DNA of 64,000 nt from assembly GCF_003730195.1 (NCBI RefSeq), contig NZ_QWGG01000003.1, positions 62,001-126,000 on the forward strand, given 5' to 3'. A program made the translations under genes and the position numbers. This stretch comes from Halosimplex salinum. Lineage in GTDB: Archaea > Halobacteriota > Halobacteria > Halobacteriales > Haloarculaceae. Positions 4,393 through 44,377 of the stretch are shown here, in pieces. The notes under the pieces are model-generated. The model was not told the DNA's origin and made no database searches. It was given only the letters and a program-made list of their open reading frames with translations. The stretch's first letter is position 1, and every line of letters starts with the position of its first letter.

Positions 4393-6210
4393 TCAGAGTC
4401 GGTCCGCGAGCGTCTGTGCGGTCTTCGCGCCGACGCCGTCGACCCGTTCCAGTTCGTCCCGTGAGGCCGAGCGGACGTTCTCGACGCTCCCGAACCGGCG
4501 GAGGAGTCGCTTGCGGGTCTGGGGACCGACTCCGTCGAGGTCGTCCAGGACCGTGGACACCTCGTCGCGCAGGGTCTGGTGGTACTGCACGGCGAAGCGG
4601 TGGGCCTCGTCGCGGACGCGCTGGAGGAGGTGCAGGTGCGAGGCGTCGTCGTCCCAGTCGTGGACGCGCGCGGGCGTGACGACCAGTTCCTCGTCCTTCG
4701 CCAGCGCGACGACCGGCACGTCCCACCCCGCTTCGGCGAGCGCGTCCCTGGCCGCGCCGAGCTGTCCCTCGCCGCCGTCGATCAGGAGGAGGTCTGGGTC
4801 GGGACGCTCGTCACGGCCCTCGACGGCGCGGTCGGCGCGCCAGCGGACCAGCGACCGCATGTTCGCGTAGTCGTCGTTGGTGTCGTCGAGTTTCTTCCGC
4901 CGGTAGTCCGACTTCTCGGGGCTCCCGTCCACGAACGTCACGTCGCTCCCCACGGCGGATTTCCCCTGGGCGTGGCTCACGTCGAACCCCTCGATGCGAC
5001 TCACTCGCGAGTCCAGGCCGAGCGCCTCGGCGAGCGCGCGGCCCTCGTCGTCCCGGCGGTCCCGGCTGCGGGCGTTCTTCAGTGCGAGGTCCACGAGCGT
5101 CGACTCGCGGCCCGTGCCGGGGACGCGCAGGCCGACGCCCTCGCGCTCCAGCCAGTCGGCCAGGTCGGGGTCGTCGGGGTGGTCCGAACACAGGATCGCG
5201 TCGGGGAGGTCGCGTTCGGCGTAGTACTGGGCGATGAAGGCCGCGAGCACCGCGCCGGAGCGCTCGCCCTCGGGCGCGTCCAGCGTGTGGCGGTCGCGGT
5301 CGACGAGTTTGCCGTCCTCGCTGTGGAGGCGGGCCACGGTGGCCGTCTCGCCCTCGACGGCGACGCCGAGCACGTCGATCACCCGCTCGCGCTCGCGGTC
5401 GGAGTCCTCGTGGCGCCCTTCGCTGGCGACGGCGTCGCCGGCCTCACCGTGGATCGCTTCGACGGCGTCTAGCCGGTCGCGGAGGTTCGCCGCCCGCTCG
5501 AACTGCTGGTCGCCCGCCGCCGCCTCCATCTCCCGACGGATCGGGTCGGCGAGCGCCCCGGTTTCGCCCTCGAAGAAGCGCTCGACGGCCTCGACGTCCC
5601 CGAGATACGCCTCGGTGTCGACGTCCGTCTCGGCGACGCACGGGCCCGAGCAGAGGCCGATGTCGTGGTCGAGACACGGCCGGTCCCGGTTGGCGAACTT
5701 GTGGTCCGAACAGCCCCTGAGACCGTAGGTCTCGCGGGCGGCCTTGAGCACCGTCTCCAGGCGGCCCTTGTCGGTGAAGGGACCGAAGACGGTGGCGCCG
5801 GGGTCGGGGTCGCGCGTGATCTCGATCCGGGGGAACTCGTGGTCGGTCAACTGGACGAGCGGGTAGGACTTGTCGTCTTTCAGGCGGACGTTGTACCGCG
5901 GCCGGTGGCGTTTGATGAGGTTCGCCTCGAGGAGCAGGGCTTGCGTCTCCGTGTCCGTGACGGCCACGTCGACGGACTCGGCCTCGCGGACCATCCGCCT
6001 GATGCGCTCGCTCCGCGGGTCGGCGTAGGAGCGCACCCGACTCCGCAGGTCAACCGCCTTCCCCACGTAGAGGACGCGCTCGTACGAGTCTGCGGCGTGC
6101 CGCTCCCCGTCGGTGTCGTCCCGTCCCCGCGACCGCCGGGCGAGGAACTGGTAGACGCCGGGCTCGGCGGGCAGGTCGGCCACGCGCTCCCGGACCGCGT
6201 CGGGATCCAT
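4393..6210 (-). CDS. uvrC: UvrABC system protein C (excinuclease subunit)
   Basis: The subunit that makes both incisions in nucleotide excision repair together with UvrB. The 605 residues fit the family. An N-terminal GIY-YIG nuclease domain (PGVYQF and [13 protein letters not shown]) contains an acidic, arginine-rich insertion of about 20 residues. A UVR motif follows near residues 215-245 for UvrB contact. The RNase H-like second nuclease comes next, with [14 protein letters not shown] and [10 protein letters not shown]. Two helix-hairpin-helix units close the protein ([25 protein letters not shown]). No uvrA or uvrB is in the window. Confidence 0.97.
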
Positions 6211-25329: not shown

Positions 25330-25629
25330 GCCCGCGAGCGCCACGCTCATGCTCGCGGGTCGCTTCGCTCGCGGGTCACTCCGTTCCCCGCTCGCCTCGC
25401 GGCGCTCGTTTCACTCGCGCCGCGCACTCCCCGCTCGCTATCCGAGGTCGCTCACTACGTCTGCGAACGAGCGGCGAAGCCGCTCGTTCGCATGGTCTGA
25501 GGGACCGACGGTCCCTCACTATTCGCGACCTCGCGTCTCACGGCTCACTACGTTCGCCGTTCGAGATACCGTGGCGCTCGCTACGCTCGCGCCACGCTCA
25601 TGCTCGCGGGTCACTCCGTTCCCCGCTCG
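25330..25629. repeat. Cluster of short palindromes between SHOCT and pdxT genes
   Basis: There is no gene here. The gap is tiled with inverted and direct repeats. Two perfect palindromes are at 25463-25491 (13-bp arms around GAA) and 25499-25517 (GAGGGACC-GAC-GGTCCCTC, identical to 2671-2689 in copy A). The phrase CTATCCGAGGTCGCTCACTACGT-like occurs twice, near 25440 and at the pdxT end. CCACGCTCATGCTCGCGGGT occurs near 25340 and again near 25594. It looks like accretion of small repeat units, one of which carries the pdxT 3' end. Confidence 0.8.
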
Positions 25630-42575: not shown

Positions 42576-42596
42576 CGCCACCGCCAGGACTCGAAC
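42576..42596 (-). repeat. Duplicated 3' end of tRNA-Asn (21 bp)
   Basis: The 21 bases 42576-42596 are identical to 42741-42761, the 3' end of the tRNA-Asn gene (T-arm 3' part, acceptor and discriminator), in the same orientation and 165 bp downstream of it. A duplicated tRNA 3' end is the usual scar of tyrosine-recombinase integration. The 144 bp between the copies has no gene, so it would be a remnant. Confidence 0.7.
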
Positions 42597-42740
42597 AGGT
42601 GCAAGACGGTCCTGCTCGTTCGCTTCGCTCACTGCGCGAGCATGCGACTTGCGGGCGCGAGTCCCGGCTGTCGCGCGTTCGTCGTTCGCGATGGTGAGCA
42701 CACGCTACGCGGTGCTCACCGAGTTACTCACGACAGAAGA

Positions 42741-42813
42741 CGCCACCGCCAGGACTCGAACCTGGGACAACCTCGTTAACAGCGAGGTGCTCTACCAACT
42801 GAGCTACGGCGGC
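42741..42813 (-). tRNA. tRNA-Asn (GTT)
   Basis: A 73-nt gene read on the minus strand, starting GCCGCCGTAGCTCAG. The acceptor pairs GCCGCCG with CGGTGGC (one G-U). The anticodon stem CCTCG/CGAGG encloses CTGTTAA, anticodon GTT. The T-arm is CCAGGTTCGAGTCCTGG. Discriminator G. CCA is not encoded, and the CCA-adding enzyme gene is the divergent neighbour. No intron is seen. Confidence 0.96.
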
Positions 42814-42958
42814 ACGCATGCAGTCATAGCCGGAGTTGTTGTATAGGGATTTCGCTTTGGACCCGTCGCGTCACGGAGTCACGTACGTCGACAGAACGAC
42901 AGTTCCACACCCACAGTACATCAGACAGGTTTTCACGGGGCCCGTCCAACCCCGAGCC

Positions 42959-44377
42959 ATGAGCGACGAGTTCGACGCGGTCGTCGAGCGGGTCCGCGAG
43001 CGGGTCGAACCCGACGCGGCCGAGCGCGAGCGACTCGACGCGGTCGCCGACGACCTCCGCGAGCGCGCACGCGCTGCCATCGCCGACCTCCCGGTCGACG
43101 CCGACGTGATCCAGGTGGGCTCGACAGCGCGCGACACGTGGCTGGCGGGCGACCGCGACGTCGACCTCTTCGTCGCCTTCCCGCCGGATCTCGACCGCGA
43201 ACGCCTCGAATCCTACGGCCTCGACGTCGGTCACGCGGTCCTGCCGGAGGGCCACGAGGAGTACGCCGAGCATCCGTACGTGAAAGGAGTCTACGACGAC
43301 TTCGACGTGGATCTGGTCCCCTGCTACGCGGTCGAGGACGCCACGGAGATCCAGTCGGCCGTCGACCGCACGCCCTTCCACACCGAGTACCTCACCGAGC
43401 GCATCGACGCCGACCTCGCCGGGGAGGTCCGGGTCGCCAAGCAGTTCCTCACCGGTATCGGCGTCTACGGCAGCGACCTGCGCACTCGCGGGTTCTCGGG
43501 CTATCTCACCGAACTGCTCGTCCACGAGTACGGCGACTTCCGGGCGTTCGTCGAGGGCGCCGCCGACTGGCACCCGCCGGTGACATTCGACCCCGAAGAC
43601 CACGCGGAAGAGCGCGAGACGGCTTCGCCGTCTCGGAACGACGAGGTCGGCGGAGCCGACCTCGCTTTCGACGACCCGCTCGTGGTCGTCGACCCGACGG
43701 ACCCCGAACGCAACGTCGCCGCGGTCTGTACCGCCGAGAGCGTCGCGCGCCTCCAGCACTACGCGCGCGACCTGCTGGCCGACCCGCGCGAGAGTCTCTT
43801 CTTCGCGGCGCTGCCGGAGGCCGTCGACGCCGAGACCGTCCGGGAGACCTTCGAGCGACGGGGGACCACGCCGGTGGCGCTCCGGTTCGCCGCGCCCGAC
43901 ATCGTCGAGGACCAGCTCTACCCGCAACTCGACCGGTCGCTTGCGGGGATCGTCGGCGAACTCGACAGGCGAGGGTTCGACGTGCTCCGGGCGGCGGCGT
44001 GGGCCGACGAGACGGTCGCGCTGCTGGCCGAACTCGAAGTCGCGGAGCGACCGACCGTCGAGCGGCACGAGGGGCCACCGGTCCACGTCAGGGGCCACTC
44101 CGAAGGGTTCTACGAGGCGTACGCGGACGACGACCCGGAGAGCGACGGGACGTACGGACCGTTCCTCGACGGCGACCGCTACGTCGTCGAGCGCCCGCGA
44201 GCGTTCGAGACGGCGGTGGGGCTGCTGGAGAGCGACGCGCTCTTCGACGTGGCGCTGGGGGCGCAGATCGAAGCGGCGCTGGAGGGGGACTACGAGGTGC
44301 TCGCCGGCGAGGCGGTGAGCGAGCTGGCCGAGGAGTTCGGTGTCGAGCTCGCGCGGTATCTGGCGCCGCGGCCGTGA
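42959..44377 (+). CDS. cca: CCA tRNA nucleotidyltransferase (archaeal class I)
   Basis: Adds and repairs the 3' CCA of tRNA with CTP and ATP. The 472 residues start with an archaeal class I nucleotidyltransferase domain: GSTARDTWLAGDRDVDLFV (Asp67, Asp69) and DFDVDLVPC as the third carboxylate. RVAKQFLTGIGVYGSDLRTRGFSGYL is the next family block. Residues about 217-236 (REREtasps... region) are encoded by two adjacent perfect palindromes, an apparent in-frame insertion. The internal ATG at MSDEFDAVV is chosen; the frame upstream overlaps the tRNA promoter zone. Confidence 0.95.
   Translation: MSDEFDAVVERVRERVEPDAAERERLDAVADDLRERARAAIADLPVDADVIQVGSTARDTWLAGDRDVDLFVAFPPDLDRERLESYGLDVGHAVLPEGHEEYAEHPYVKGVYDDFDVDLVPCYAVEDATEIQSAVDRTPFHTEYLTERIDADLAGEVRVAKQFLTGIGVYGSDLRTRGFSGYLTELLVHEYGDFRAFVEGAADWHPPVTFDPEDHAEERETASPSRNDEVGGADLAFDDPLVVVDPTDPERNVAAVCTAESVARLQHYARDLLADPRESLFFAALPEAVDAETVRETFERRGTTPVALRFAAPDIVEDQLYPQLDRSLAGIVGELDRRGFDVLRAAAWADETVALLAELEVAERPTVERHEGPPVHVRGHSEGFYEAYADDDPESDGTYGPFLDGDRYVVERPRAFETAVGLLESDALFDVALGAQIEAALEGDYEVLAGEAVSELAEEFGVELARYLAPRP
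43615..43664 (+). repeat. Two in-frame palindromes inside cca
   Basis: The first palindrome is CGAGACGGC-TTC-GCCGTCTCG (43615-43635, 9-bp arms). The second is CGAGGTCGGC-GGA-GCCGACCTCG (43642-43664 approximately, 10-bp arms). Six bases separate them. They encode about 17 residues that sit between DPEDHAEE and FDDPLVVVDP without breaking the frame. They look like the short palindromes of the intergenic repeat clusters. Confidence 0.85.

Follow-up and report, generated by a model that had tools for sequence, protein, structure and literature searches.

The window, that is, the whole 64,000-nucleotide stretch of the Halosimplex salinum genome analysed here, carries on its plus strand the gene cca (42959-44377), which encodes the archaeal CCA tRNA nucleotidyltransferase (cca_archaeal, TIGR03671, E = 3.6e-145; PDB relative 1R89, E = 3.8e-68). 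Within the gene lies an in-frame insert of 51 bp, or 17 residues, at 43612-43667 (plus strand; residues ~218-236, ERETASPSRNDEVGGADLA), with exact borders ambiguous by a few bases and a target-site duplication not sharply readable. It is built from hairpin 1 (CGAGACGGC-TTC-GCCGTCTCG, 43615-43635), with 9-bp arms, a 6-bp spacer (GAACGA, 43636-43641) and hairpin 2 (CGAGGTCGGC-GGA-GCCGACCTCG, 43642-43664), with 10-bp arms; all three lie on the plus strand and both loops are 3 nt long. An earlier note on this DNA had pointed to two perfect palindromes, 6 bp apart and in frame, that add about 17 residues to Cca. Their positions and frame are confirmed, and alignment to seven congeners gives 17 residues (51 bp); the two palindromes are real, but they are the two halves of one composite element. 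In the protein, the segment reads DPEDHAEERETASPSRNDEVGGADLAFDDPLV, 17 residues longer than the DPE.H..xFDDPLV of most congeners.

The insert folds far better than dinucleotide shuffles of itself (z = -4.9; 0 of 200 as good). Single perfect hairpins of such size occur in genes at only about twice the shuffle expectation, and a lone hairpin in a gene is therefore weak evidence; adjacent hairpin pairs were not seen in the shuffled sequences. In the solved A. fulgidus enzyme, the loop that corresponds to the insertion site is short. An AlphaFold2 model of Cca has a mean pLDDT of 87.5, and the only stretch below 50 (residues 220-235) is the insert, which is thus predicted to sit in the protein's only disordered loop. 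The 17 extra residues are apparently tolerated.

A double-hairpin element dispersed between genes

Copies of the same design, recruited through the hairpin-1 core, occur between haloarchaeal genes. They consist of two CG...CG hairpins, mostly with 3-nt loops, separated by exactly 6 bp and often framed by GTSGTT and AACSAC. Positions 43615-43664 of the window have these features (two near-perfect CG...CG hairpins, 3-nt loops, 6-bp spacer), so that the likeness in form to intergenic palindromes that had been claimed for the cca palindromes extends to an identical layout. The 6-bp gap is the modal one: it occurs in 23 of 48 distinct hairpin pairs from 1.85 Mb, a sample enriched by its recruitment route, and the next commonest gap accounts for 5 pairs. 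Departures are found in two of the coding copies discussed below, a metal ATPase (5 bp) and a zinc-ribbon-like protein (2 bp). Of 293 genomes in the order, 71 contain the hairpin-1 core GAGACGGCNTCGCCGTCTC and none contains its reversed control; the hairpin-2 stem recurs elsewhere, with many copies in one genome (G233) and several in another (G009).

A covariance model was built from 14 intergenic copies, mainly hairpin-1-recruited and none of them from cca. Its best match in the window is the cca copy (43612-43667, E = 1.9e-15), a score inflated by the use of hairpin 1 to recruit the training copies. The next match, on the plus strand at 2602-2653 (E = 3.4e-15), lies outside predicted genes, has the same layout (GTT-hairpin-TGATCT-hairpin) and was itself one of the 14 training sequences. 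In this genome, about 16 places score below E = 1e-4, mostly intergenic; the strong matches are intergenic save those in cca and the metal ATPase. The intergenic element also occurs on 34 haloarchaeal plasmids, and 20 of the 20 matches listed have no annotated gene beneath them in a gene table that is incomplete.

Several simpler identities were considered and rejected. A known structured RNA family is not indicated, as the curated families of Rfam gave no match at ten loci with intergenic copies. Nor is the insert a simple multi-copy repeat of exact sequence, GAGACGGCTTCGCCGTCTC being unique in this genome. Spread by viruses was set aside, the exact hairpin-2 pattern being absent from viral contigs and the intergenic element from phage records.

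Outside predicted genes, the window also holds clusters of several perfect palindromes at 2566-2721 and 25462-25518, one of them with 14-bp arms (25462-25492).

Distribution of the cca insert and its route into Halosimplex

The 17-residue segment is absent from all seven other Halosimplex genomes, as the earlier note had predicted for close relatives in an alignment of haloarchaeal Cca proteins. A segment common to all haloarchaeal Cca, which would have made it a native loop, is not what the alignment gives: segment length among 154 proteins is bimodal, with 8 residues in 107 and exactly 25 in 19, and intermediate lengths look like decay. For the window copy, a native haloarchaeal loop is rejected, given the empty congeners. 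The proposed insertion in cca holds in this respect but is not private to this genome, since an insert at the identical site is found in other genera and families. Among 384 haloarchaeal genomes with a match, some 31-36 carry it (the range depends on how decayed inserts are counted), in states from intact to decayed; some copies have both hairpins, others broken stems or in-frame shrinkage. Carriers include Halorientalis persicus, H. pallida, H. regularis, Halapricum hydrolyticum, the MAG QS_5_68_33, Halostella pelagica, Natronococcus pandeyae, Halovivax asiaticus, Natrinema zhouii and others. This same-site occurrence in several genera therefore argues against a fresh private insertion. On an approximate Cca tree (FastTree, insert columns excluded), the distribution is patchy: the carrier state switches 20 times, gains and losses not being separated, and at least 15 switches are forced by starred branches.

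Three further features of the site were observed. A short CGAGA-like sequence, similar to how the element begins, is present at some empty Cca sites. The cca gene of genome G115 (L048) has a different short insert in the same loop (DEGGETASPNAGDGDDGS), without perfect long hairpins. In three cca inserts (L147, L148 and L230), the loops of otherwise identical hairpins are reverse-complementary between related species (ACT/AGT, TTC/GAA), which has the look of hairpin flipping.

The window insert is 94.7% identical to that of Halorientalis, as against 72-73% in the flanks, a value that no flank window of equal size reaches (~411 compared). At third codon positions the identity is 0.95 in the insert and 0.55-0.57 in the flanks, which are of Halosimplex type. 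On either side, the Halorientalis-like stretch stops no more than ~10 bp beyond the insert. It departs from H. persicus and H. regularis solely in the loop of hairpin 2 (GGA vs. ACT). A 95% insert between 72% flanks therefore points to lateral arrival or insertion and not to plain descent. Lateral arrival is well supported by these sequence comparisons, and both direct insertion and very short gene conversion would fit.

Gene exchange between haloarchaeal genera is common, and short-tract gene conversion alone may have carried a Halorientalis-like piece of cca into the Halosimplex gene, the element having acted only in a first, ancestral insertion. The shared site and the near-identical Halorientalis insert favour such a route; a donor-like tract ending within ~10 bp on either side would be unusually short, and the evidence from other genes is left untouched. 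It is a serious candidate, though with somewhat less than an even chance. It bears only on how this genome acquired the insert, which could equally be a copy of the dispersed element.

Ancient origin is a different matter. If the ancestral haloarchaeal Cca had possessed the segment and lost it many times, the palindromes would have to have been kept by selection for mRNA or DNA hairpins, with no element involved. Many genomes of family f7 (named Natrialbaceae genera) do carry the segment in graded decay or shrinkage, and the ancestor of that clade may already have had it. Covariation among 21 carriers gives such selection some footing in hairpin 2, where compensatory change affects 5 pairs and 12 cells against a shuffled mean of 3.1. 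Hairpin 1, however, has no pair altered on both sides, and pairing is lost in 11% of cells. With compensation modest and confined to hairpin 2 and 11% of the pairings broken, strong RNA selection is unlikely and was rejected as an explanation. The contrast between insert and flanks, the emptiness of all congeners and the occurrence of the same CGGAACGACGAGGTCGGCNNNGCCGACCTCG in an unrelated Usp-like gene also speak against a native loop. This reading is disfavoured for the window copy and improbable overall, at odds well below one in five.

In-frame copies in other genes

The earlier note had proposed a search for such palindromes inside other genes, and similar in-frame inserts do occur in at least six further genes. 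With cca, seven genes in several haloarchaea carry in-frame copies, with insert lengths of ~45-54 bp. Filled and empty sites could be aligned for three of them. In this genome, a P-type metal ATPase (G000:C27) has a 51-bp insert with aligned empty sites in seven relatives; a second ATPase copy in the same genome is without the insert, as judged by length. A Usp-like protein has a 51-bp insert in three Halosimplex genomes (G003, G004 and G005) and an empty site in five (G000, G001, G002, G006 and G007), and its insert and that of cca have CGGAACGACGAGGTCGGCNNNGCCGACCTCG in common although the genes are unrelated. In a zinc-ribbon-like protein, most relatives are empty and two have a hairpin-bearing insertion. 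In the zinc-ribbon-like gene of G241 (L289, near 5989-6070), an extra 45-bp double hairpin lies in the loop of an older hairpin (GCGGG-CGAAG-CCCGC), a nested arrangement that suggests hairpin loops as preferred targets. For the other three genes, the empty sites rest on PDB alignments: relative to solved structures, the gap is ~17 residues in a GH2 beta-galactosidase and 21 residues in an S9 peptidase, and a gap in a Trm5-like methyltransferase is the weaker case. Some pattern matches, among them L406, L408 and L414, were set aside as ordinary coding sequence.

The same reading frame (CGG AAC GAC GAG and close variants) is used in the five genes with a GAACGA-type spacer; the spacer of the methyltransferase copy is GACCGA. 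In the cca and Usp elements, the frame used is the only net acidic one of six. In the GH2 element one other frame ties for acidity, and the S9 copy is slightly basic. Halophiles may prefer acidic peptides.

Could such palindromes have arisen where they stand, without a mobile element? Perfect inverted repeats might be built during replication by template switching or hairpin correction. The stems differ in sequence among copies yet remain perfect, the loops vary while the arms are constant, with some loops being reverse complements (the ACT/AGT and TTC/GAA cases), and the CGAGA-like sequence at some empty Cca sites would suit this origin. It leaves unexplained the fixed 6-bp spacer, GAACGACGAGGTCGGC, which is common to different genes and genera, and the near-identity of the Halosimplex and Halorientalis inserts. 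Mutational formation of the insert seems very improbable; a mutational process may still maintain or flip hairpins after insertion.

Nature of the element and related systems

Taken as a whole, the cca insert is best read, with a probability of about 0.78, as a copy of a dispersed, non-coding haloarchaeal palindromic element of ~50 bp that occasionally enters genes. A pair of perfect hairpins, with loops of 3 nt and 6 bp between them, makes up the element, which resides mostly between genes. Gene copies would survive if their length is a multiple of three, if the frame is open (usually acidic rather than basic, RxTAxPSRNDEVGxADL) and if they sit in a surface loop where additional residues are tolerated. 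In cca, a single loop may have received the element, which later passed from one haloarchaeal lineage to another through short-tract recombination or renewed insertion at that site, and which decays through substitution and in-frame shrinkage; the insert would be neutral to the enzyme. Alternatively, the identical site across genera could reflect one old insertion and many losses. Movement may occur as DNA, via single-stranded hairpins, perhaps with an IS200/IS605-type TnpA acting in trans. A crude motif scan covering ~0.46 Mb of this genome, other loci and 0.4 Mb from a second genome turned up no TnpA, a weak negative. It also counts against an element that the stems differ from copy to copy to a much greater degree than is usual within a transposon family.

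In-frame palindromic DNA in protein genes is best known from Rickettsia. The palindromic elements of these bacteria (RPEs) are ~150 bp long and fall into ten families (PMC10969869). Like the haloarchaeal element, they are non-coding palindromic repeats found between genes and in frame in unrelated genes, where they are kept as an extra peptide (in part PMC10969869). The resemblance to RPEs drawn in the earlier note stands as regards in-frame copies in unrelated protein genes, seven in this case, but not as regards length (inserts of ~45-54 bp). The haloarchaeal element, at ~50 bp, further differs in its two separate hairpins and fixed 6-bp spacer. It works like RPEs, a likeness of behaviour.

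REP and REPIN sequences are likewise small paired palindromes, mainly intergenic and sometimes in ORFs (PMC3116915, PMC3733652). In contrast to the freely varying haloarchaeal stems, the halves of a REPIN are inverted, conserved copies linked to a RAYT gene (TnpA-REP); in archaea, the IS200 type is reported to be the sole TnpA subclass (PMC6006769). The nearest haloarchaeal precedent, including insertion into palindromes, is given by the PATE and SMR elements of Haloquadratum walsbyi, transposase-free repeats with palindromes, here compared through the available part of their description (PMC3119063). According to that part, PATEs reduced to their termini measure 52 bp, and SMR-A elements insert into the palindromes of other elements, as in the nested G241 case. 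It is by these descriptions that the double-hairpin element is set apart: PATEs are tied to IS605-type ends, SMRs are 80-110 bp long with terminal inverted repeats, and in-frame coding copies, which the haloarchaeal element has, go without mention in the same part of the source.

The literature searched (partial coverage, few subscription journals) yielded no description of the element or of in-frame palindromic elements in archaea, in line with the earlier note, whose author knew of none in haloarchaea. It is an even bet that haloarchaea have a class of miniature palindromic mobile DNA to themselves, which travels in the form of single-stranded double hairpins, can insert into the loops of its fellow elements and has time and again been captured in frame, giving core proteins new surface peptides. 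Such a class would be the archaeal equivalent of RPEs. If so, archaea would be a second domain of life whose core enzymes gain peptides from short palindromic DNA. Culturable genera would then supply clean pairs of empty and filled sites for testing how the element moves and why a single frame is retained; some of the length variation among loops of haloarchaeal proteins would be explained, and lineage markers would be offered.

Separately, a 19-bp piece of a tRNA-Asn gene in the window (42739-42814, minus strand) is repeated exactly ~165 bp away (42578-42596 and 42743-42761), like the attachment-site scars of integrated elements.
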